In this document: in pieces, positions 805 to 56,181 of the stretch
Layout: each line of letters begins with the position of its first letter
How positions within the stretch are numbered: position 1 is the first letter of the stretch
Origin: Meghimatium bilineatum
Taxonomy: Eukaryota; Mollusca; Gastropoda; Stylommatophora; Philomycidae
Length of the DNA stretch: 64,000 nucleotides
NCBI GenBank assembly: GCA_034231615.1
Contig: CM067316.1
Location: forward strand, 30,681,714 to 30,745,713
Direction: 5' to 3'
Position numbers and translations under genes: made by a program
The notes under the pieces: generated by a model
Databases searched by the model: none
The model's input: only the letters and a program-made list of their open reading frames with translations
What the model was told of the DNA's origin: nothing

Positions 805-1408
805 TTATTTTGGTACGTATACTTCTTGGTTTTCTCCAGGAAATATATGACTCCGCAATCTCAAATGATCAGGTGCTGCCTGTCTGAGATCTATCAACAA
901 ATAACCATGCGGGGACGCTGTTGCATCTTTAAAACTATGTTGCACATAACTGTTCTGACCGGGGTACATTTGCTTGGCCAAATGTATAATCTGCGAGCCG
1001 TCACGTGGGTTCTTCAAAAGCACAATATAGTGAGAGTTGAGGCTAATGGTTCGGTGTTATTTGCTTTTACCAAACAAATTCTGCACAATATACAACATCA
1101 GACTCCGATGATGACTTTCTTTAGTGAATAATTTACTAACGCGAACATATGTTTCATTCATCAATAACCAACAGTCTTGGTTTATCACCATTCCATTCCT
1201 CCACGTCTGGTAGTCCTTCAATAAATTTAACACCAGGCATTGTCTCATACGCAGCCTGCCACGCACCATAAAACCAGATAATTTCCTCTGGTATCGGAGC
1301 CTCCATTTCATGCACATATTTTAAGAAATTTTGCACAAAAACAGTTTTTCCGCACCAAGTCGGACCTGCAATCATAGCTGTAAAAGGATGTTTCCACCTC
1401 GTATCCAT
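805..1408 (-). pseudogene. Polinton-type DNA packaging ATPase (HerA/FtsK fold), degenerate
   Basis: The most likely start is the ATG at 1408, just before WKHPFTAMIAGP. A Walker A motif (GPTWCGKT) lies near 1375-1350 and a Walker B (LLVIDE) at about 1175-1157. The rest of the protein continues in a different frame from about 1160 (LFTKESHHR, YIVQNLFGK), so one base was lost or gained directly after Walker B. A TAA at 1057-1059 then interrupts the frame, which resumes as HRTISLNSHY and KNPRD and ends with LRLRSHIFPGE at 805. These are the landmarks of the Polinton/adintovirus genome-packaging ATPase, which pumps DNA into capsids. Total length, about 200 codons, fits the family. The two lesions make this a fossil. 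Capsid, protease, integrase and polymerase B genes are not in the window. Confidence 0.75.
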
Positions 1409-2225
1409 TTCTGTTAATAACCATTTTTGTCGTATGTTACATATATTTATAAAACACACACACACACAGCGCACCATAGCCATAATTTCCAACACAAATT
1501 TAAGTGGAAAACACTACCCACCCAGCATACACACACATATATACTACCCACCCCTTTTCCAGTTGTCTGGATCGGGAACCTCGCCGCTCCCCCGCCCGCC
1601 CCGCCGATATCAGGACTGCGCCCCGCTCCAGGCACACACACCGCGCGGGTTCATCCAGTTTCGACCAGTTTCTACTGTTTCGATTGCCACCATATTGGAT
1701 GTGCGAGCACACTCAGCACATTCGATTGCACACTCAGCACATTCATGGCACACTCGGCACACTCAGCACATCCACGTATCGTTCCATCCCTGATACACTA
1801 CTATCGTTGTTTTGTAGTAAGATGAACCATAATTGTTCAGTCAATTTTCAACAGAATGTATTCCAGCACTGTCAATCTTTTATAGGCATTTAATAATATG
1901 GTCAGAGTGTTTTATGTTCAGTACGTTTCTCGGAATTACAGAAAAATGTAATTTTGACCTTCACGTCGTTCATGACCTCACGAATAATGAAGTGAGTACA
2001 ACTCATGTAACCTCAAGAAGTTAATTAATAGGTGGACACAGTCGATAGGTTGAATGATATCCACTATGGAAATATATTTTTAAAAAGTGACTTCAAAAAC
2101 ATTGCGTTTCACTTTTGGAACAATATATAAATAGAATGAAAGCTTTCATTCGTGTCTTGCCACGGCCCAAATGTTGAGTGTCGATACTGTTACCTAACAG
2201 GATTGCCGTAAAAGACGAGGATCAA
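1409..2225. other. Intergenic stretch upstream of the Polinton ATPase; no gene seen
   Basis: A short (CA)n run at 1454-1466 is followed by a GC-richer segment (about 1560-1660), a short tandem repeat and then AT-rich DNA up to the LTR. Overlapping open frames here on both strands are histidine/threonine- or cysteine-rich translations of simple repeats and have no family resemblance. Confidence 0.5.
1703..1772. repeat. Short degenerate tandem repeat (GCACACTCAGCACATT-like)
   Basis: Imperfect 8-16 bp units built on GCACACTC and AGCACATTC are repeated about five times. Simple minisatellite, no coding content. Confidence 0.6.
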
Positions 2226-2674
2226 TGGTAAGAGGCTATGCCCCTAGCGTTACGCAACTTAAAACTCTTGCCAATTCTATTGTCTGGTTGTTGCGAGTAT
2301 CCACGACTTCAGACGGACTCTGTGTGAGTTTGTAGACACTCGTCTTATCCTAGTCCAAACATCCCATTGTCCTTCCTGAGGTATGGTATAGTAGCGTCAT
2401 GTCTGCCTCCCGTGTCCGAGTGCGTAAGATGCAGACTCGTGATAAATAATATTGCCTTTAGCTAAAGCGTACTAGCTTGTCTCAGACTTTCTGTCTGACA
2501 TGTGCACGAACAACTCGTCTGCAATTTAAAGTATTTGTACCAAAATTTACACAATAGCAAAACATTCAATGTGTTGCATTTCCCCCGTCCATCTCTTGCT
2601 ATCTGTGAAGGGTTCTCACTTCTTACTGTGAAACCCCCTGCCTGTGAAGGGTTCCGCAACCAGATACTATCACA
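2226..2674 (-). repeat. 3' LTR of the gag-RRM retroelement
   Basis: This 449-bp block is repeated in the same orientation at 5412-5860 with about nine substitutions, roughly 2% divergence. Read on the minus strand it begins TGTGATA and ends TTACCA, the usual TG..CA LTR termini. A purine tract lies directly upstream on the minus strand (2686-2675), which identifies this copy as the 3' LTR. The two outer flanks do not show an obvious 4-6 bp target duplication. Confidence 0.85.
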
Positions 2675-2686
2675 TCTCGCCCCCTT
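2675..2686 (-). promoter_or_regulatory. Polypurine tract (plus-strand primer) next to 3' LTR
   Basis: On the minus strand the sequence AAGGGGGCGAGA directly abuts the TGTGATA start of the 3' LTR. It is the expected position and composition of an LTR-retrotransposon polypurine tract. Confidence 0.7.
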
Positions 2687-3329: not shown

Positions 3330-3739
3330 CTACTGAAGACATTTTTCTCTGTCCTTCGAGTTTTTAAACTCAAGGAAGGCGAACGGACGACGTTTGCCTT
3401 CTTTATTTACAGATAGAAACACCTCTTTGATTTCTCCGAACCAGCGGAAGTAGTTGGCTATTTCAAAACGCACATTGCTGTTTATTTTGTCAATAAACAA
3501 TCTCCCCCCGTTGTACGCTCCTGGTGCCAACATCGGTACAATTCTGTTTCCCGTTACTGCTCTATCTATGCGCCTGCGACTGACTACAAAGAGCGTGCCT
3601 GGTGCGCTCCTAATCTGTCTTTTTCGCTCGTTCCTCACTACTACCCCTATTCTTCCAACTGCTCTGTCTCTATTAAAGGCGACCTTGCCTTGGGGTCCGC
3701 TCCGGTAGGTCCCTATCTCCGAGCGGGACGTCCGTTTCC
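3330..3739 (-). CDS. RRM-domain segment in the -1 frame after gag
   Basis: The frame is open from within the gag end (GGG AAA CGG at the slippery site) down to TAG 3330-3332. It carries an RNA recognition motif. RNP2-like LFIDKI lies at 3500-3483, helix 1 and strand 2 cover FEIANYFRWFGEIKEVFLSV, and RNP1-like RPFAFLEF lies at 3389-3366 with proline where glycine is usual. A basic N-terminal part (VVRNERKRQIR) precedes it. The RRM is a single-stranded nucleic-acid binding fold, so genomic RNA binding or chaperoning is a reasonable inference. No standard start codon is needed if ribosomes arrive by -1 frameshifting from gag; an internal start cannot be excluded. The TAG inside the second helix of the domain probably damages it. 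Confidence 0.7.
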
Positions 3740-3740
3740 C
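3697..3740 (-). promoter_or_regulatory. Predicted -1 programmed ribosomal frameshift signal
   Basis: On the minus strand the heptamer GGGAAAC (3740-3734) lies in the gag zero frame as G GGA AAC, the classical X XXY YYZ arrangement used by several retroviruses at gag-pro. A 7-nt spacer follows. The arm CCGCTC (3726-3721) can then pair with GAGCGG (3702-3697), with extra GG/CC pairs inside and GT/AC pairs outside across single-base bulges. Slipping by -1 leads straight into the RRM frame; the gag stop lies only 19 nt after the heptamer. Confidence 0.7.
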
Positions 3741-4504
3741 GACGTCCAGGCCGTTGGGTGTCTTGTCTCCTCGTGACGTCTTGTTTCTAGCTGAGCGTCT
3801 TGTCTACGCTCCTGTATCCTGCCACTTTCTCCGAACTCTGTTTCATCTAACCTCTCGGTTCTGTGTTCTCGTGAGTCGGTACCCAACCTGAATTCGATCC
3901 ATTTATTAGTGCGCTCCTTCGTCTGTGCTAAACGAAGAGCATCGTCTAGCGTGCTGGGATCGGTTTCAATGAGGTGACGTTTAATCGCTCCTGGCAGCAA
4001 TCCTTCTACAAAATAGTGCAGGAGTATTCTCCCTACACCTCCTTCCTTCATTTCCTGGGGGAAAGCTTCTTCTACCAGACGTAACAGTCTGTCTCCGAAA
4101 GCTTCCACTGTTTCAGCCACGTTTTGTCTAACCTTTGTTAGCATTACCAGCGCATATTCGGATCCAGAGAGTCCACCATATCTCCGTTCTAATCCCGATT
4201 GGAAGTCCTTCCAGGATTCTGCGGGTACTCTCTCTATCGTGAGCCTAATCGTCTCCGCTACTATACCGTTGCTAGCTTGCAGAGCTAACAATTTCTTGTT
4301 ATAGTCGCTGTCTCTTGTCAACAACGCGCAATTTTTTATTTCTGCTATCCAGCTCTTGAAATGCTCTTCGTTCCCTGAGAACGGTGTAATAACGGTAGCC
4401 GAGGCTTGCCATCTCAAGGCTTGTATTAATTCGCGCTGCTCAGACTTCTCTACTTCTTCATTGTTGGCTACTGGGGCTAAGGCCTCCGTCGCCTTTTGTT
4501 CCAT
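3713..4504 (-). CDS. Gag-like capsid protein of LTR retroelement
   Basis: This 263-codon frame with an ATG at 4504 encodes a Ty3/gypsy-type gag. The N-terminal part leads into ITPFSGNEEHFKSWIAEIKN, where the F.G......W pattern is typical of the retrotransposon gag domain. The middle contains ESWKDFQSGLERRYGGL and ALVMLTKVRQNVAETVEAF, the capsid C-terminal-like helices, and LDDALRLAQTKERTNKW marks the end of the domain. The C-terminus is arginine/glutamate-rich and lacks a CCHC zinc knuckle, so the downstream RRM may supply the RNA-binding function. The frame has no internal stops and is probably intact. Gag would form cytoplasmic virus-like particles. Confidence 0.8.
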   Translation of the reverse strand: MEQKATEALAPVANNEEVEKSEQRELIQALRWQASATVITPFSGNEEHFKSWIAEIKNCALLTRDSDYNKKLLALQASNGIVAETIRLTIERVPAESWKDFQSGLERRYGGLSGSEYALVMLTKVRQNVAETVEAFGDRLLRLVEEAFPQEMKEGGVGRILLHYFVEGLLPGAIKRHLIETDPSTLDDALRLAQTKERTNKWIEFRLGTDSREHRTERLDETEFGESGRIQERRQDAQLETRRHEETRHPTAWTSGNGRPARR

Positions 4505-5411
4505 TTTCTCCCAACACTTCTTTTATGAGTTTCTTGTTACTAACTCCGTAACGTCCTCTCAACTCTACTATTATCTCTGGATAGCCTTAATCCGCTTAAC
4601 TGCTAATCTATGTGTGAACAAACAATCCTACTTGAGTTATATTACCAAGTTGACATATATATAAAATGCATGAAACAAATATGTCAAGTATCTAATTTTT
4701 TCACTCTGTGAATATAACATTCATAAATTCAATATCTCCTCTGTGGATCTAACATTAATAAATTCAATATCTCCTCTGTGGAAGGAACATTTATAATTTC
4801 GATATTTCCTTTGTGGAATAAACATTTATAAATTCAGTATCTAATTAATGTTAACTTTAACTATTTATGTTAAACACCAAAACAAATGTTCATTTCTCTC
4901 AGTCGTTCTGGTCCAGTCGGAGAATTTATAAATTTAGCTATAGTCTCCACGGAGTAATAGATTGTTCGTAAATTAGATAGCAATTGTTCACTTCTCTCTG
5001 TTCTGTGATAATTAGTTAGTATGACATACTCACATCAATGTCCGTCTGTTGTTCCTTGAAATTATACTAAACTGAATTGATTCATTAACCGCACAGGTAA
5101 CTGAAATTCGCGACAGCTCGTGTCGCAACTTGAAACTAAATTTAACACACACCAATTTTCTCTTTGAAACTTCTGCGTTTCAGTATAATTGGCCTTCGTG
5201 ATAATCAAATATAGGGTAGTACTCCGCGATGGCCCAGACGATCCGTAGTCAGATGGTGAGGTCCTAAACTCCACCCTTCTTCTTACTCCCCACCTATCAT
5301 CTTCTCTTCTCGGTCCGCACTTCTGCTGCTTCTGACTCCGCCTCTACATTATGACCTGTCAAACTCCTGTACGCGTTTATTAAACCATGCGTAACGTTAG
5401 ATGTTCCTCTC
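4505..5411 (-). other. 5' leader of the gag-RRM LTR element
   Basis: About 0.9 kb between the 5' LTR and the gag start, without a convincing reading frame. It contains a 35-bp tandem repeat. The sequence right after the LTR (GAGAGGAACATC on the minus strand) does not match a familiar tRNA 3' end. Confidence 0.6.
4704..4841. repeat. Four 33-35 bp tandem repeats in the LTR-element leader
   Basis: Units of the form CTGTGGATCTAACATTAATA followed by AATTCAATATCTCCT are repeated four times with moderate divergence. They lie inside the untranslated leader of the element, where repeats may act in packaging or transcription (inference). Confidence 0.75.
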
Positions 5412-5860
5412 TGGTAAGAGGCTAAGCCCCTAGCGTTACGCAACTTAATACTCTTGCCAATTCTATTGTCTGGTTGTTGCGAGTATCCACGACTTCAGAC
5501 AGACTCTGTGTGAGTTTGTAGACACTCGTCTTATCCTAGTCCAAACATCCCATTGTCCTTCCTGAGGTATGGTATAGTAGCGTCATGTCTGCCTCCCGTG
5601 TCCGAGTGCGTAAGATGCAGACTCGTGATAAATAATATTGCCTTTAGATAAAGCGTACTAGCTTGTCTCAGACTTTCTGTCTGACATGTGCGCGAACAAC
5701 TCGTCTGCAATTTAAAGTATTTGTACCAGAATTTAGACAAGAGCAAAACATTCAATGTGTTGCATTTCCCCCGTCCATCTCTTGCTATCTGTGAAGGGTT
5801 CTCACTTCTTACTGTGAAACCCCCTGCCTGTGAAGGGTTCCGCAACCAGATAATATCACA
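5412..5860 (-). repeat. 5' LTR of the gag-RRM retroelement
   Basis: Partner of the LTR at 2226-2674, same length and orientation. On the minus strand it begins TGTGATAT and ends CTCTTACCA. It contains two copies of a GAACCCTTCACAG-like motif near its start on the minus strand. Confidence 0.85.
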
Positions 5861-5864
5861 TCTG

Positions 5865-6195
5865 TAGTCTGATCACGGGTTTGTAACTTTCTACACATTC
5901 AGTAATGGTGGCTGTTTTATAACTCTCAAATGCATTCAGTAGAAGTCGCTGGTTTGTAACTCTTTATACATCCAATAGTTATGGATGTTTTGTAATTCTC
6001 TATACATTCAGTTGTGTAGTTGTTTCGTAGCTCTCTATAAAGTCAATAGAGATGTGTGTTATGTAACTCTCTATACATTCAGTAGAGGTGGCTGTTTTGC
6101 AACGCAATATATTCAGTAGCGGTGGATATTTTGTAACTCTATACATTCAGTAGTGGTGAATGTTTATAACTATCTATAAATTCAATTGCAAAGTA
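5865..6195. repeat. Degenerate 35-40 bp minisatellite, left part
   Basis: About eight units built on TTTGTAACTCTCTATACATTCAGTAGTGGTGGATG vary in length and sequence. The array is interrupted at 6196-6690 by a LINE tail and continues to 7240. Confidence 0.8.
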
Positions 6196-19281: not shown

Positions 19282-20270
19282 CTAAGCGAAAGAGTGGTCG
19301 GAATTGAGTCCAAATAGCTTGATGGTACCCAACTCGAAAATGAGACGATTTTCTAGGGCGTACCTAGATCTATCATCGCTGGTGCAGGATCTGATGGCAG
19401 TGACCTGAATGTCAAGGACACCACGGTGGCCATCGCCTTTGAAGTGATTAGCCACAGGAGTGGGTGTTCTGTGTTTGATAGCATGCAGGTGGTTACAGAA
19501 GCGGTCGCTCAGTCTAAGGCCAGTCACACCGATATATTGCTTACCACAGCGTTTACAAATGATCACGTAAATAACATTGCGGGATTTACATGTAAAGGCC
19601 TCATCGATGGAGAAACTGACCTTGGGGAATGAGATGGAGAGCATCTGAACCACATAAGGACATGTGTAACAACGACCGCGTGAGCAACGAACGGTACGAA
19701 AATGGTCAGGTGCAGAGGACCAGAGGTGGCTGTGGACCAAGATGTCCTTCAGATTTTTGTCGCTCCTATAGGCCACCAGAGGTAATTTGTGGAAAGCGTC
19801 ACGGGTGTCAGAATCAGACTGGAGAATGGAATACTGTTTAAGTAGAATGCGACGGACAGTCGAGTTATGGGGATGGAAGGTAAGAACCAGTTTAACCCTA
19901 TCAGAGGAGGAGGAAGAACCCTGGGAATTATTCAAGGTATCAAGGCGAGATAGCTGGCGTACACGGAGCCAAGCCAATGAAAGAATGCTGTCAGGGAAGG
20001 AGCGTCTACGAAAGAACTCAATCATCTTAGAGGATTTGTCGAGACAATCGTCGTCATCACTACATAAGCGACGAAGGCGAAGAAGCTGTGAGTAAGGTAG
20101 AGAGTTACGACAGGCGGGAGGATGAGAAGAAGGGATGGGCCATCGTAGGTAGACCAAACTAGATGTTCTAGATGTCCCATGAAAAGACAGGCATAGATAG
20201 GCTCCATCTTAGTGCCCATGGCCACACCACTGATCTGATCGAAAAAATGGCCCATTCCCATCTCTTTTCC
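19282..20270 (-). pseudogene. Penelope-like element protein, left copy (linker plus GIY-YIG endonuclease)
   Basis: Minus frames show an RT remnant (GVAMGTKM, about 20230-20158). The part that would hold the catalytic YIDD motif has been removed, and the linker starts at SHPPACRNSL in a shifted frame. A clean 291-codon frame (20157-19282) holds the C-terminal linker, a cysteine cluster (CSRGRCYTC) and the GIY-YIG nuclease (VIYVIICKRCGKQYIGVTG, then LSDRF), ending FGLNSDHSFA. The GIY-YIG domain of Penelope elements makes the nick for target-primed integration. Without the RT palm this copy cannot retrotranspose by itself. In the conserved GETG the glutamate is valine. Confidence 0.75.
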
Positions 20271-20271
20271 A

Positions 20272-21448
20272 CAGATACATTGATCATGGGATAGGTATTA
20301 CTGACATGACAGAAGCAGAACTGTCTCGTTTCATCAACTTCATCAACAATTTCAACCCCGCTATTAAATTCACATTTACCATTTCCACCACCTCTGCCCA
20401 TTTCCTGGACATCATTGTCACTATTCATCCATACCTCAGCACATCAGTCTACTACAAACCCACTGATGCACATGGCTTTCTGCTCTACACTTCTTCTCAT
20501 CCTCCCGCCTGTCGTAACTCTCTACCTTACTCACGGCTTCTTCGCCTTCGTCGCTTATGTAGTGATGACGACGATTTTCTCGACAAATCCTCTAAGATGA
20601 TTGAGTTCTTTCGTAGACGCTCCTTCCCTGACAGCATTCTTTCATTGGCTTGGCTCCGTGTACGCCAGCTATCTCGCCTTGCTACCTTGAATAATTCCCA
20701 GGGTTCTTCCTCCTCCTCTGATAGGGTTAAACTGGTTCTTACCTTCCATCCCCATAACTCGACTGTCCGTCGCATTCTACTTAAACATTATTCCATTCTC
20801 CAGTCTGATTCTGACACCCGTGACGCTTTCCACAAATTACCTCTGGTGGCCTATAAGCGCGACAAAAATCTGAAGGACATCTTGGTCCCCAGCCACCTCT
20901 GGTACTCTGCACCTGACCAGTTTGGTACCGTTCGTTGCTCACGCGGTCGTTGTTACACATGTCCTTATGTGGTTCAGATGCGCTCCATCTCATTCCCCAA
21001 GGCCAGTTTCTCCATCGATGAGGCCTTTACATGTGAATCCCGTAATGTTATTTACGTGATCATATGTAAACGCTGTGGTAAGCAATATATCGGTGAGACT
21101 GGCATTAGACTGAGCGACCGCTTCTGTAACCACCTGCATACTATCAAACACAGAACACCCACTCCTGTGGCTAATCACTTCAAAGGCGATGGCCACCGTG
21201 GTGTCCTTGACATTCAGGTCACTGCCATCAGATCCTGCACCGGCGATGATCATGCACCAGTACGCCCTAGAAAATCTTCTCATTTTCGAGTTGGGTACCA
21301 TCAAGCTATTTGGACTCAATTCCGACCACTCTTTCGCTTAGTTCTCGGTCGTATTGGTCTTTGTTGTGTCATCGTTTTGTTCCTCTCGTTCCACCTGTAT
21401 TATCGTCTTTGTGTACTTCCTGTTTGTATGCTTCCGGTTTCTATCTAA
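20272..21448 (+). pseudogene. Penelope-like element protein, right copy (RT C-part plus GIY-YIG)
   Basis: The plus copy is 5'-truncated and starts at RYIDHGIGI (20274), so the RT catalytic YIDD has become YIDH. RT thumb (LSRFINFINNF, HFLDIIVTIH), linker, cysteine cluster and GIY-YIG (YIGETG, LSDRFCNHL) follow. A frameshift at about 21250 replaces the normal C-terminus; the true frame ends at FGLNSDHSFA-like codons near 21335. The sequence overlaps the left copy almost perfectly over 1.1 kb. Inactive RT, but the nuclease fold looks intact. Confidence 0.75.
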
Positions 21449-39158: not shown

Positions 39159-41626
39159 AATGAGTAGGGCTCGGATTTTTATGACCTAAAAATCCTGAAA
39201 TATAACATGAAAATATGACCTAAAATATGCCGAAATATGACCATAAGGTTTTTCTCATTTATGAACAACAAAAAAACGCAAATTATTATTGTTTGCATGT
39301 TTTACGCATTACATAGTAGTCATAGTACCTACATAGTAGTAATACTTAACAAAGCATGTACAAAAACACTTACCACATTTATTCCTCAGTTTTCATTGTT
39401 TGTACAATTGCAACCGACAACAACATGCATTTTTAGAGTTTCAAATTTGAACGATCGTCGATTGTCACTGAGAATTGTTTTATATTTTGAAAAACTTCGT
39501 TCTACATCACATGATGTCACAGGGGCAAATCTAAATAATATCAGATCATTTGCTGAAAGTTCAGGTTCATCCTCTTGAAATGTTGCATGTTTACCACTAA
39601 GTATGTCTGCAATTTTGCACAATGAGAAATAACCAGAATTTCTATGAAGAACACTTTCTAATTTTACTTTAATCCTGTTGCTTACTTCACCACGTGATCC
39701 ATTTAATTCTGTTTGAATTTGTTTCACAATATCTAATGCATCATAAAGTGCAGTCCCTTCGCTTTCCAGACGTTTTATTGCTTTTGAAATTGCCGAAAAG
39801 TTTGACTTTGTATAAGTCAGATTTTGTGATAGTCTGGTAGAAAATAAGCTTTGCACTGCTTGTATTGATGTTGCGTCGTCTTTGTCTAGGGCATTAAATA
39901 TTTTAATTAGTGTTGAATAGTTGTCACAGTAATACTTTACAGCGTCCAGCCATGTACCCCAACGTGTAAGGATAGGTTGTCGAGGAAGTGGTAGTTGAGG
40001 AGCTTCTTCTTTGAATTTTTGTACTCGAAGAGGAACCTTGATGAATATTTTTTTCCCATTTGAAATAAGCTTGTCCACATCAGGAAAATTACCTCGAACT
40101 TCCTCAGCTACTCGATGCAGTGCATGAGCAAGGCAAGTAATATGGATCAATTTCGGGTAGAGAATTTGAAGTCCTTTAGCAGCCTTTTTCATATAGGGAG
40201 CAGCATCTGTTATTAATAGAAGGATATTATTTCTTTCTATTCCATTTGGCCACAACAGCTTCATGGAATTCTCAAATAGAACAGCTATGGAGGTATGATT
40301 TGTTCTTTCAAGAACTTCACAGTTAAGGACAAATTTTTCTCCTGGTTGATCTCCTTTTAAAGTTCCAACTATAACATTTGCGACAAACCTGCCATCTACA
40401 TCAGTAGTCTTGTCTAAGGAAACCCATATCTTGTTATCTGCAATAGAATTTCTAATTTTATTTAACATGTCCTCATAACATTTGGAGAGATAATTTTTCC
40501 TTAAAGTAGATTCATCTGGGATAGGATGGCTAGTGTATTTCTCCAGAAATTGTCGGAAATATTGATTTTGCAATTTATTTAAAGGGATATTTGATGAAAC
40601 CATCATATGACACAAATCTTTATAAAAACCGGTCTCTGTGTTTCCCGAAGAAGAAGAGGAAGTAGCAGAACATTTTTCAAGTAATAAACTTTGTCTTCCT
40701 TCCATTTTAGAAAGTCTACTTAAACATTTCATATGTTTAGAAGTATTGCAATGTTGTTGCACATTAAACCGTTTTCCAGCTGTAACCTTGACCTCACACA
40801 GTGTACAGTACAATATTTCTCCATCGGTACTAAATACTTTTGAACCAAATTCCTGTACAAATTTACGCAACTTTGCACCATTAGAATTAGACACTTTAGG
40901 CATGGTAAAACAAAGTTATTCCAGTGAATCAACCATAAACAATATAAAATATAACACTATTATTAAGACTATTATATAACTATGAGCTAGAGCACGAGAT
41001 CATGTAGTCACTGTTGCAAATGGAAATTAATAATTGTAAAATACAAATGGGCGCCAAACGGTTTAAATTGAAACTGGAAGTTTTAAGAAATCCAGGAATA
41101 TTCGCTCTTGCCGTTGAAACATTTGAAATTGTTTCCTACAATTTACTTTCGAAACAAAACCCAGAAAATTCTTTTGAAGTATTGAGCTGATGTCACTCCC
41201 TTTTTGATTCTCAGATGCCGACTGACATCAAAGAGTTGACTGATGTCTTCCCTTCCCTACAGTCGCATGAAAGACACACATGCATATTCACTAATATAGC
41301 CACATTCAGAAATATAGCCAATCCTCACAATTTGTCTCTAAACATAGTTTAAGATGTGCTAACATTGATAAGCAAACGGAGTACACCAGAACGTTGAGTA
41401 CACCAGAAAATATGCAAAATATGACCAAAATATGACCTAAATCTCCAATTTCAGGCAAAATATGACCTCATAAAAATGATGGTCAAAATATGCATTTATA
41501 TGACAAATAAAAACAGCTTAAAATTGTTCAGAAATGCTTGAAACATGTAGAAATTAACTTAAAACTGAAAATATGCTTCAGGAAAAAAATAATACATTTC
41601 ATGAAAATCCTAGCCCTTTTAATGAG
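39157..41626 (-). mobile_element. hAT DNA transposon, copy 1 (39165-41618) with TSD TTAATGAG
   Basis: The 8-bp duplication TTAATGAG flanks the element at 39157-39164 and 41619-41626. Terminal inverted repeats start TAGGGCTCGGATTTT on the left and AAGGGCTAGGATTTT on the right (read inward). AT-rich subterminal regions carry many AAAATATGACCT-like words, probable transposase-binding sites. It encodes one full-length transposase on the minus strand. The element is 2,454 bp long and about 98% alike to the copy at 44172-46651, so insertion is recent. Confidence 0.9.
39386..40903 (-). CDS. hAT transposase, complete 505-codon frame
   Basis: The start is ATG at 40903 with a clean frame to 39386. A BED-type zinc finger (C33, C36, H51, H57) gives DNA binding. 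The RNase H-like core shows the hAT landmarks: the first acidic D164 (VSLDKTTD), the second acidic D233 (LITDAAPY), the C257-H260 pair of the all-helical insertion (CLAHALHR), the R314-W315 pair (LTRWGTW) and E468 in DVERSFSKYK. It belongs to the group annotated as CGG-repeat-binding-protein-1-like in animals. The residue after D164 is lysine, while the sister copy has glutamate, so activity may be reduced. Transposase would cut and paste elements with TAGGGC ends. This is the best-preserved enzyme in the window. Confidence 0.85.
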   Translation of the reverse strand: MPKVSNSNGAKLRKFVQEFGSKVFSTDGEILYCTLCEVKVTAGKRFNVQQHCNTSKHMKCLSRLSKMEGRQSLLLEKCSATSSSSSGNTETGFYKDLCHMMVSSNIPLNKLQNQYFRQFLEKYTSHPIPDESTLRKNYLSKCYEDMLNKIRNSIADNKIWVSLDKTTDVDGRFVANVIVGTLKGDQPGEKFVLNCEVLERTNHTSIAVLFENSMKLLWPNGIERNNILLLITDAAPYMKKAAKGLQILYPKLIHITCLAHALHRVAEEVRGNFPDVDKLISNGKKIFIKVPLRVQKFKEEAPQLPLPRQPILTRWGTWLDAVKYYCDNYSTLIKIFNALDKDDATSIQAVQSLFSTRLSQNLTYTKSNFSAISKAIKRLESEGTALYDALDIVKQIQTELNGSRGEVSNRIKVKLESVLHRNSGYFSLCKIADILSGKHATFQEDEPELSANDLILFRFAPVTSCDVERSFSKYKTILSDNRRSFKFETLKMHVVVGCNCTNNEN

Positions 41627-44163: not shown

Positions 44164-46659
44164 CTCATGACTAGGGCTAGGATTTTCATGAAATGTCTAT
44201 TTTTTCCTGAAGCATATTTTCAGTTTTAAGTTAATTTCTACATGTTTCAAGCATTTCTGAACAATTTTAAGCTGTTTTTATTTGTCATATAAATGCATAT
44301 TTTGACCATCATTTTTATGAGGTCATATTTTGCCTGAAATTGGAGATTTAGGTCATATTTTGGTCATATTTTGCATATTTTCTGGTGTACTCAACGTTCT
44401 GGTGTACTCCGTTTGCTTATCAATGTTAGCACATCTTAAACTATGTTTAGAGACAAATTGTGAGGATTGGCTATATTTCTGAATGTGTGTATTAGTGAAT
44501 ATGCATGTGTGTCTTTCATGCGACTGTAGGGAAGGGAAGACATCAGTCAACTCTTTGATGTCAGTCGGCATCTGAGAATCAAAAAGGGAGTGACATCAGC
44601 TCAATACTTCAAAAGAATTTTCTGGGTTTTGTTTCGAAAGTAAATTGTAGGAAACAATTTCAAATGTTTCAACGGCAAGAGCGAATATTCCTGGATTTCT
44701 TAAAACTTCCAGTTTCAATTTAAACCGTTTGGCGCCCATTTGTATTTTACAATTATTAATTTCCATTTGCAACAGTGACTACATGATCTCGTGCTCTAGC
44801 TCATAGTTATATAATAGTCTTAATAATAGTGTTATATTTTATATTGTTTATGGTTGATTCACTGGAATAACTTTGTTTTACCATGCCTAAAGTGTCTAAT
44901 TCTAATGGTGCAAAGTTGCGTAAATTTGTACAGGAATTTGGTTCAAAAGTATTTAGTACCGATGGAGAAATATTGTACTGTACACTGTGTGAGGTCAAGG
45001 TTACAGCTGGAAAACGGTTTAATGTGCAACAACATTGCAATACTTCTAAACATATGAAATGTTTAAGTAGACTTTCTAAAATGGAAGGAAGACAAAGTTT
45101 ATTACTTGAAAAATGTTCTGCTACTTCCTCTTCTTCTTCGGGAAACACAGAGACCGGTTTTTATAAAGATTTGTGTCATATGATGGTTTCATCAAATATC
45201 CCTTTAAATAAATTGCAAAATCAATATTTCCGACAATTTCTGGAGAAATACACTAGCCATCCTATCCCAGATGAATCTACTTTAAGGAAAAATTATCTCT
45301 CCAAATGTTATGAGGACATGTTAAATAAAATTAGAAATTCTATTGCAGATAACAAGATATGGGTTTCCTTAGACGAGACTACTGATGTAGATGGCAGGTT
45401 TGTCGCAAATGTTATAGTTGGAATTTTAAAAGGAGATCAACCAGGAGAAAAATTTGTCCTTAACTGTGAAGTTCTTGAAAGAACAAATCATACCTCCATA
45501 GCTGTTCTATTTGAGAATTCCATGAAGCTGTTGTGGCCAAATGGAATAGAAAGAAATAATATCCTTCTATTAATAACAGATGCTGCTCCCTATATGAAAA
45601 AGGCTGCTAAAGGACTTCAAATTCTCTACCCGAAATTGATCCATATTACTTGCCTTGCTCATGCACTGCATCGAGTAGCTGAGGAAGTTCGAGGTAATTT
45701 TCCTGATGTGGACAAGCTTATTTCAAATGGGAAAAAAATATTCATCAAGGTTCCTCTTCGAGTACAAAAATTCAAAGAAGAAGCTCCTCAACTACCACTT
45801 CCTCGACAACCTATCCTTACACGTTGGGGTACATGGCTGGACGCTGTAAAGTATTACTGTGACAACTATTCAACACTAATTAAAATATTTAATGCCCTAG
45901 ACAAAGACGACGCAACATCAATACAAGCAGTGCAAAGCTTATTTTCTACCAGACTATCACAAAATCTGACTTATACAAAGTCAAACTTTTCGGCAATTTC
46001 AAAAGCAATAAAACGTCTGGAAAGCGAAGGGACTGCACTTTATGATACATTAGATATTGTGAAACAATTTCAAACATAATTAAATGGATCACGTGGTGAA
46101 GTAAGCAACAGGATTAAAGTAAAATTAGAAATAGTTCTTCATAGAAATTCTGGTTATTTCTCATTGTGCAAAATTGCAGACATACTTAGTGGTAAACATG
46201 CAACATTTCAAGAGGATGAACCTGAACTTTCAGCAAATGATCTGACATTATTTAGATTTGCCCCTGTGACATCATGTGATGTAGAACGAAGTTTTTCAAA
46301 ATATAAAACAATTCTCAGTGACAATCGACGATCGTTCAAATTTGAAACTCTAAAAATGCATGTTGTTGTCGGTTGCAATTGTACAAACAATGAAAACTGA
46401 GGAATAAATGTGGTAAGTGTTTTTGTACATGCTTTGTTAAGTATTACTACTATGTAGGTACTATGACTACTATGTAATGCGTAAAACATGCAAACAATAA
46501 TAATTTGCGTTTTTTGTGTGTTCATAAATGAGAAAAACCTTATGGTCATATTTCGGCATATTTAGCATATTTTAGGTCATATTTTGCCTTTTTTAGGTCA
46601 TATTTTCATGTCATATTTCAGGATTTTTAGGTCATAAAAATCCGAGCCCTACTCATGAC
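44164..46659 (+). mobile_element. hAT DNA transposon, copy 2 (44172-46651) with TSD CTCATGAC
   Basis: The 8-bp duplication CTCATGAC lies at 44164-44171 and 46652-46659. Terminal inverted repeats are TAGGGCTAGGATTTT and TAGGGCTCGGATTTT. The element sits inside the LINE RT at 43290-47035, whose codons (AIDWVM, then RKSTENE) continue across the duplication. It is in opposite orientation to copy 1, 2,480 bp long and nearly identical. Confidence 0.9.
44883..46400 (+). pseudogene. hAT transposase with premature stop
   Basis: This is the same protein as copy 1, but a G-to-T change creates TAA at 46077-46079 (codon 399). The remaining C-terminal part, including the E of VERSFSKYK, stays open to 46400. 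The first catalytic motif here is SLDETTD, with glutamate after the aspartate, the form usual in the family, unlike the lysine in copy 1. Other differences are few (T/I at codon 181, A/T at 389). The truncated 398-residue product would lack the last catalytic residue. Confidence 0.85.
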
Positions 46660-54769: not shown

Positions 54770-55162
54770 GACAGGATGGTCAGTAACTCAACGATTGTGC
54801 GGAAATGTTTGTTAATAACAGAATTGTCAAGTCTCTTGGTGATTTGTGTGACAAACTTAAGTAACATTCTCATGAGAATCTCTCAGAAACTCTTGGTGAG
54901 AGCATTAGTTAACAGCAGGGCCTGTCTTAGGCCATTGCAACCTATGCGGCCGAAGTGGGTCTCGCACTTCATAGGCCCATAAATTCATATTAGAATTTAT
55001 TTTATTATCCTCTTCCCTACTGGGCCCCGCGGAATCCGTTTCGCATTGGGCCGGATTGTTAGGGCCAGCCCTGGTTAACAGAATGATAACTCTGCGATTG
55101 TGTGTGATAAAGTTAGTTAATATGATTGTTAGTGTCTCAGTGATTGTGTGTGACAATCCTAG
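54770..55162. repeat. Degenerate 50-60 bp minisatellite, left part, holding a MITE
   Basis: Units with GTGTGACAAAGTTAGTTAAC, AGAATG and GTCTCTTAGTGATT are repeated. The array is split by the MITE at 54916-55073 and by the Penelope copy at about 55163-56450; it continues at 56545-56670. Confidence 0.65.
54908..55081. mobile_element. hAT-type MITE of 158 bp (54916-55073) with TSD GTTAACAG
   Basis: The 8-bp duplication GTTAACAG lies at 54908-54915 and 55074-55081. The ends are CAGGGCCTGTCTTAGG and, inverted, CAGGGCTGGCCCTAAC. No coding capacity. The CAGGGC.GGCCC type end is common among hAT families. Confidence 0.85.
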
Positions 55163-56181
55163 TTATCACCCCTAAAGAATCTCGCGCCTTGGCACATCTT
55201 CGTCGCCGTGATGATATTGTCATCAAACCAGCAGATAAGGGTGGGGCCGTTGTGGTTTGGCATAAGGACCTTTACCTCCAGGAGGGTCACCAACATCTCT
55301 CCGATCCTTCTTTCTACACTTCACGCACATCTGATACGACTGTAACTAACCAGAAGGTTGTTAACAACACTGTGAAAACCCTTATCCTTAACAACGACCT
55401 TCCTACCACTGCCAAGTCTCTTTGCATCGATCAAAGCTGTTTAGGCAAACCTGTTTTCTATATGCTGCCTAAAATCCATAAGGCATCTAATCCGGGTAGA
55501 CCTATTATCTCTGCTTGCTCTTGTCCCACTGAACGCATCTCCGACTTCCTTGACAGCATTTTTCAGCCGTTAGTCGAACAACTGCCTTCATTCTTGAAAG
55601 ACACTATGCATGCCCTAACCATTTTTTCTACCGTCCAGTTGTCTTCTGATCCTGACACCCGTGACGCTTTCCATGACTTATCTCTGGTGGCTTATATGCG
55701 TGATAGAAATCTGAAGGACATCTTTGTTCATAGCCACCTTAAGTCTTCTGTTCCTGACCATTTTGGCACTGTTCGTTGCTCACGTGTCCGTTGCTTTACA
55801 TGTCCTTACGTAGTTCAGATGCGCTCCATTTCATTTCCCAAGGCCACTTTCTCCATCGATGAGGCCTTTACATGTGAATCCCGTAATGTCATTTACGTGA
55901 TCATATGTAAACGCTGTGGCAAACAGTACATAGGGGAAACCGGCCTACGATTGAGAGATCGCTTTTGTAACCATCTTCATGCCATCAAGCACAGAACATC
56001 CACTCATGTGGCCACACACTTCAACTGCGATGGTCATCATGGTGCGATGGATATTCAGGTCACCGCCATCAGATCTTGCACCACCGATGATAGATCTAGG
56101 TATGCTCTAGAAAATCGTCTCATTTTTGAATTGGGTACACTCAAGCCTTTTGGACTCAATTCCGACCACTATTATGTCTAG
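55163..56181 (+). CDS. Penelope-like protein with in-frame deletion of the RT palm; GIY-YIG retained
   Basis: The open frame starts inside the repeat at 55144 (a GTG, not a credible start); real homology begins near 55172. It encodes the RT N-terminal part (DDIVIKPADKGGAVVVWHKD, PVFYMLPKIHKASNPGRPII, TERISDFLDSIFQP) up to about 55630. It then passes without a break into the C-terminal linker (DPDTRDAFHDLSLVAYMRDR), the cysteine cluster (CSRVRCFTC) and a complete GIY-YIG nuclease (VIYVIICKRCGKQYIGETGL, LRDRF, ending FGLNSDHYYV). The catalytic RT motifs (FxD, the MG block, YIDD) are missing. The remaining 345 codons are all open, which is unusual for a decayed copy. Confidence 0.75.

Follow-up and report, generated by a model that had tools for sequence, protein, structure and literature searches.

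A damaged pol-less Ty3-like element of Meghimatium bilineatum with RRM and coiled coil encoded in the −1 frame behind a capsid-like gag and a candidate frameshift site

Frameshifting in LTR elements commonly fixes the ratio of Gag to Gag-Pol, and the slippery heptamer G_GGA_AAC is used by the Ty3-derived genes PEG10 and PNMA3. In insect errantiviruses Gag lacks a CCHC box, its C-terminus is basic and the −1 frame downstream leads to Pol, and we know of no RRM in them; the TR-GAG elements of plants are small LTR elements that are devoid of pol and keep a gag of their own. In the passages of PMC5009743 that deal with such sites, pol lies in the −1 frame in 28 of the 51 animal LTR elements surveyed, G_GGA_AAC ranks among the most shift-prone heptamers, spacers of 5-9 nt are given for many studies with other lengths occurring as well, and the Ty3-derived gene Ma3 is credited with about 20% −1 shifting. 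An RRM-like domain in the Gag of Metaviridae is likewise already known, though N-terminal to the capsid, since selected passages of PMC11011659 describe the PNMA-lineage vertebrate Metaviridae as RBD-CA-NC; the same passages state that the sequence behind the shift in Ma3 and Ma5 is poorly conserved and that no domain was found there. Finally, an RRM combined with a coiled coil or a CCHC motif is carried by the ORF1 proteins of LINEs, as described in part of PMC4120745.

The window analysed here, a stretch of 64,000 nucleotides of contig CM067316.1 of the gastropod Meghimatium bilineatum, holds an element (element 1) that may be set against each of these systems and that consists of the following features:

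5860-2226, minus strand: element 1, 3.6 kb, with an LTR pair, gag and a −1 RRM ORF
5412-5860, minus strand: 5′ LTR (TGTGAT...TTACCA), 449 bp, direct repeat of 2226-2674
4504-3713, minus strand: gag ORF from the ORF list, 263 aa, capsid-like (coding to 3716; stop TAG 3715-3713)
3803-3330, minus strand: −1 frame ORF from the ORF list (open to 3333), with the basic linker GRIGVVVRNERKR from 3656 and the RRM
3740-3734, minus strand: G GGA AAC, a slippery heptamer lying in the zero frame of gag (tc-G GGA AAC), read directly
3733-3727, minus strand: 7-nt spacer GGACGTC, read directly
3726-3697, minus strand: 10-bp stem from the minimum free energy fold, with two bulges of 1 nt each and a loop of 8 nt (3726-3717 pairs with 3708-3697)
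3333-3503, minus strand: RRM domain (Pfam RRM_1)
3332-3330, minus strand: in-frame TAG that cuts the RRM at residue 68, in the second helix of the AF2 model
3329-2838, minus strand: continuation of the same frame past the TAG, 163 open codons for the end of the RRM, a basic region and a coiled coil
2675-2686, minus strand: polypurine-tract-like AAGGGGGCGAGA, adjoining the 3′ LTR, read directly
2226-2674, minus strand: 3′ LTR, 449 bp, direct repeat of 5412-5860

With TR-GAG, as we understand the term, element 1 shares a retained gag and the absence of pol between the LTRs, but it differs in carrying an additional RRM-coiled-coil module, and in the manner generally ascribed to insect errantiviruses it has a basic C-terminus in place of a zinc knuckle and a −1 frame downstream. 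The class of the heptamer, its position at the 3′ end of gag, the 7-nt spacer and the downstream stem are all reminiscent of animal gag-pol −1 sites, PEG10 and PNMA3, to the extent that these are treated in the passages cited above; in contrast to gag-pol sites, however, the −1 product is neither protease nor Pol and the stem is within chance. As in the PNMA lineage, a Gag, here putatively of the Ty3 type, and an RRM-like domain occur together in an LTR element, and PNMA is indeed the best Pfam match of this gag (E 0.0018, followed by Retrotrans_gag with E 0.016, both below the curated cut-off). In that lineage, however, going by the same passages of PMC11011659, the domain is N-terminal and an NC follows the capsid, whereas the RRM of element 1 comes after the capsid, lies in the −1 frame, is joined to a coiled coil and has no CCHC motif beside it. 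The combination of RRM and coiled coil in what would be an RNA-binding protein of a retroelement recalls LINE ORF1, so far as the part of PMC4120745 referred to describes it, but the LTRs, the polypurine-like tract and the capsid-type gag are unlike a LINE, and the L1 ORF1 (transposase 22) model is absent from the Pfam matches of element 1. In the open-licence literature, as covered by titles, the starts of abstracts and selected passages, no LTR element with an RRM following its capsid was found, and the mentions of an RRM checked in two of these papers were references to a LINE. A preliminary description of the locus had called the arrangement unfamiliar among LTR elements, which stands for the position behind the capsid but not for the presence of an RRM-like domain in the Gag of Metaviridae, the published N-terminal one (PMC11011659, in the passages cited) being a precedent.

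The LTRs of element 1 have TG...CA ends and differ at 9 of 449 positions when compared as direct repeats. A target-site duplication was not seen by eye, the flanks CTACAGA and TTGATCC being mismatched, nor was a tRNA primer binding site recognised by eye. Furthermore, the shared 449-bp stretch holds no AATAAA poly(A) signal and one AATAAA is found immediately past the 5′ copy, which is why the 3′ LTR may be truncated. On the minus strand between the LTRs no pol-sized ORF is present among ORFs of at least 100 aa, and Pfam gives no pol match for any of the three main ones; since no PR-RT-RH-IN pol was found in this way, the element is termed Ty3-like and pol-less rather than a full member of the Metaviridae. 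A tandem repeat of about 35 nt (4704-4842, minus strand) lies in the leader, downstream of the 5′ LTR and ahead of gag, and a minisatellite-like array with units of about 36 nt adjoins the 5′ LTR at 5872-6186.

The gag product is helical in an AF2 model made from the single sequence (mean pLDDT 42.5), and a search against solved structures returned a single match with E 0.94. No relatives of it were found at E up to 1e-3 among 5.8 billion proteins (1484 word-sharing candidates), nor in the viral contigs or genome contigs searched, and no CCHC knuckle was seen at the place where a relative described below (element 2) has a CCHC-like one. The −1 ORF matches RRM_1 (E 1.3e-7) with 31.8 bits, the cut-off being 20.7, and within this match we take LFIDKI to be RNP2-like and RRPFAFLEF to be RNP1-like. 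Against solved structures the ORF likewise finds RRM proteins, the best being Nop15 with E 1.1e-4. When the TAG is read through, the AF2 model of the product (single sequence, mean pLDDT 60) has the strand and helix order of an RRM, with strands at residues 11-13, 34-42 and 48-55, helices at 19-29 and 59-76 and, after these, a strand of two residues; the coiled-coil region is represented by a long helix at residues 148-206. A Foldseek search with the RRM model gave the RRM of Nop15 as the best match (probability 1.00, E 1.6e-3), and the best 50 matches are largely RRM proteins, none of them with E below 0.001. The Pfam RRM_1 match becomes four residues longer upon read-through and scores 33.4 bits, but this score is uninformative, since a shorter piece without read-through scores 33.9. 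Relatives of the RRM-coiled-coil part were found neither at E up to 1e-3 among 5.8 billion proteins (1803 word-sharing candidates) nor in the viral contigs searched. Because the TAG cuts the RRM, the present copy is unable to make the whole domain by frameshifting alone and would need read-through as well.

The only relative of element 1 found is a decayed copy elsewhere in the window:

~34958-33741, minus strand: element 2 (limits approximate), from tblastn (2e-8), alignment and shuffle tests, with a capsid C-terminus and no heptamer
34621-34583, minus strand: CCHC-like knuckle of element 2
from 34417, minus strand: linker GKIGVVARREKK of element 2
33923, minus strand: QVEER in the coiled-coil region of element 2

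Element 2 is broken by stops and changes of frame, and its knuckle (zf-CCHC, E 0.0021, below the Pfam cut-off) sits within some 78 nt of sequence for which element 1 has no counterpart in the alignment. The gag tail and linker of element 1 (3800-3560) resemble element 2 to a degree reached by none of 300 shuffles. The coiled coil, compared as protein, was equalled by none of 2000 shuffles in the longer frame of element 2, the other frames giving 26 and 575 of 2000. Compared as DNA, the whole coiled-coil region was equalled by 7 of 500 shuffles, its core, which was chosen post hoc, by none of 500, and the RRM and coiled coil together by 9 of 300; none of 83 other pieces of the window scored as high as the coiled-coil region. 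Three single ORFs of element 2 tried against the coiled coil were negative, with 917, 543 and 166 of 1000 shuffles as good. From GRIGVV/GKIGVV to QVEER the spacing is 519 and 494 nt in the two elements and the order is the same, and since linker and coiled coil are common to both, we can conclude that the layout predates the copy seen as element 1. The RRM is undetectable in element 2 (347 of 2000 shuffles as good, and 179 of 300 as DNA). A stretch with the motif FSFVTYK, considered as its RRM, was dropped on these same counts, for the want of a Pfam RRM match in its 81-aa ORF and because the motif stands at a different distance from the flanking anchors. The −1 frame and a frame of element 2 match across the overlap and the RRM in blastp with E 7.9e-4, which is weak because composition was uncorrected.

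Past the coiled-coil region of element 2 (33741-32330, minus strand) there is a polypurine-like AGAAAGGGGAGAGA, and behind it about 1.3 kb that resembles an LTR and contains two degenerate direct repeats (110 nt at 82% and 78 nt at 83%) as well as an AATAAA, and since these trail the coiled-coil region, element 2 may be pol-less too. They also lie between it and a decayed stretch at about 32.3 kb (32337-31467, minus strand), which by eye resembles a Ty3-type protease and the start of an RT (VIPTGAEVTLMSSQLY..., ...TRYQDVFAL). Pfam gave no protease or RT match for the scanned pieces of this stretch, and it is possibly another element or a parent element, although element 2 might also continue into it.

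Other mobile sequences share the window. Two ORFs for hAT (DUF659) transposases, at 39386-40915 on the minus and 44871-46079 on the plus strand, lie about 4 kb apart and are nearly identical by eye. For the transposase of the former (39389-40903) the best match among the best 120 of 670 is a Cryptotermes secundus (termite) protein with 74% identity, the other named ones there being mostly from aphids with one from a cockroach, and among the matches listed one is 99% identical across half the length of the ORF; hAT elements can move between species. An ORF at 1154-1513 (minus strand) resembles by eye the viral-type packaging ATPase of Polinton/Maverick elements, with more short ORFs towards base 60, and the ORFs at 19282-20208 (minus), 20234-21448 (plus) and 55144-56181 (plus), the first two almost back to back, have GIY-YIG-like ends by eye as in Penelope-like elements.

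The reading that we favour, and to which we would give about an even chance, is that element 1 is a damaged pol-less Ty3-like copy whose progenitor placed a basic-RRM-coiled-coil tail on some of its Gag by −1 frameshifting and did so without a CCHC motif. The progenitor gag would have encoded a capsid-type protein lacking the CCHC motif, with most ribosomes ending at the gag stop and a minority slipping one base back at G_GGA_AAC to make a Gag-linker-RRM-coiled-coil protein. This minor form would co-assemble with Gag and might bind the RNA of the element through its RRM and basic regions, so that the tail would partly take over the role of the zinc knuckle, and of the Pol fusion of a full element, with RT and integrase presumably supplied in trans by another element. 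Frameshifting in the progenitor would be in keeping with the textbook position and spacing of the site and with how frequent −1 layouts are among animal LTR elements, the shifting of Ma3 included. What had been described as a classical −1 signal linking gag to an RRM does have its heptamer, GGGAAAC, in the gag zero frame ahead of the gag TAG, and the 7-nt spacer and bulged stem reported with it, given as 8-10 bp, are found as well, the stem having ten pairs and two bulges; the −1 frame, again as described, leads to an RRM and not to a protease or RT, no Pfam pol match being present. Heptamer, frame and usual spacing thus hold, but the stem is ordinary and the heptamer is unconserved in the relative. 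In folds made without pseudoknots the stability is no better than that of shuffled sequence (z −0.72 to +0.06 over five segments, with 46 of 200 shuffles of 3733-3690 equally stable or better). A search of Rfam with 3500-3900 gave a single match, whose 13.3 bits fall short of the gathering score of 53.5, and codon-position composition along 3983-3324 failed to separate the frames near the heptamer. The heptamer position in element 2 reads GAGAAGC, and of the ten pairs of the stem six are kept there and four broken, with no compensatory changes. The poor conservation and lack of a found domain behind the shift of Ma3 and Ma5, as reported in the passages of PMC11011659, were also counted against a frameshift in element 1, as were the TAG that breaks the RRM of this copy and the failure to detect an RRM in element 2.

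The chief alternative, which we regard as possible though somewhat unlikely, holds that Gag, linker, RRM and coiled coil once formed a single continuous frame, that an indel in the overlap of a broken copy put the latter part into −1 and that the heptamer is coincidental. This notion is in agreement with the TAG in the RRM, by which the copy is already broken, and with the −1 frame over 3803-3681 being open in 46% of shuffles; openness there carries no information for that reason, and no selection would be needed to account for it. The overlap itself is 91 nt long, a length seen in 22% of shuffles. Its only heptamer of the form X XXY YYZ (Y being A or T and Z not G) is GGGAAAC, and in 20,000 codon shuffles of gag any such heptamer was present in 4.1% and one from a list of efficient heptamers in 3.3%, which means that a single frame requires a listed heptamer to have arisen by chance at textbook spacing. 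On the other hand, among the 319 ORFs of the window (stop to stop, at least 60 aa, gag's own included) such heptamers are found in the last 91 nt of 27, which favours coincidence, and listed ones in 19, and the window has 3 copies of GGGAAAC on one strand and 7 on the other, against about 2.3 expected per strand. The comparison with element 2 likewise goes the way of a single frame, with the gag frame scoring above the −1 frame over 3751-3681 (z +0.93 and −1.05, the +1 frame having +0.40) and again past the gag stop over 3715-3681 (z +1.19 and −1.03), yet all of these differences are non-significant. As a control the gag frame in the capsid gives z 4.18, but in the block 3679-3564 the −1 frame, which would be expected to come out best there, reaches just +0.50, and the test is weak outside the capsid for that reason. 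Judged by element 2, itself broken, the comparison would thus lean against the −1 frame as the coding frame across the overlap. Furthermore, with only 9 of 449 LTR positions different, few hits after insertion are to be expected, which tells against this alternative.

We consider it improbable that the RRM and coiled coil were instead made as a separate protein from the ATG at 3533 by leaky scanning, reinitiation or from a spliced RNA. This is the sole in-frame ATG of the −1 ORF and it lies directly before the RRM, as such a start would require, but its context TTGTACCGATGTTG looks poor compared with that of gag, GGGAGAAAATGGAA, by the usual rules. In addition, the 48 codons upstream of it (3677-3534) are open, as is the case in just 2.2% of shuffles, and are in part common to element 2, and the openness of this stretch makes it probable that the RRM protein extends upstream of the ATG towards gag. 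That element 1 is a dead chimaera, in which sequence with an RRM came to lie behind a piece of gag by capture and never gave rise to a product, seems equally hard to credit. The TAG in the RRM, the target-site duplication not seen, the want of a poly(A) signal in the stretch common to both LTRs, the lack of gag or RRM-coiled-coil relatives in the search of 5.8 billion proteins, within the sensitivity of that search, and the RRM undetectable in element 2 would all suit it, but the far-diverged element 2 has the linker and coiled coil as well, with their order unchanged and the distance between them much alike, so that the layout has been propagated, and the 163-codon coiled-coil frame (3329-2838) is open in only 0.02% of shuffles.

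Returning to the frameshift reading, the parts, a capsid gag, a −1 layout, an RRM and a coiled coil, are each known and it is their arrangement that was not found elsewhere, on the basis of one damaged copy and one partial relative. The wider proposal, that a lineage of pol-less LTR elements kept the −1 signal of gag and swapped Pol for an RNA-packaging RRM-coiled-coil tail on a fixed minority of Gag, replacing the CCHC nucleocapsid, is one that we hold to be doubtful. If it is true, frameshifting would be a device separated from Pol that doses an RNA-binding subunit in a particle borrowing its enzymes, and the RRM would substitute for the zinc knuckle of the nucleocapsid. Seen beside the RRM-like domain that vertebrate Metaviridae have N-terminal to the capsid, it would furthermore suggest that Ty3 Gag was combined with an RRM on more than one occasion. 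Should there be no frameshifting, a capsid and an RRM-coiled coil in a pol-less element would still constitute a testable model of RNA packaging.
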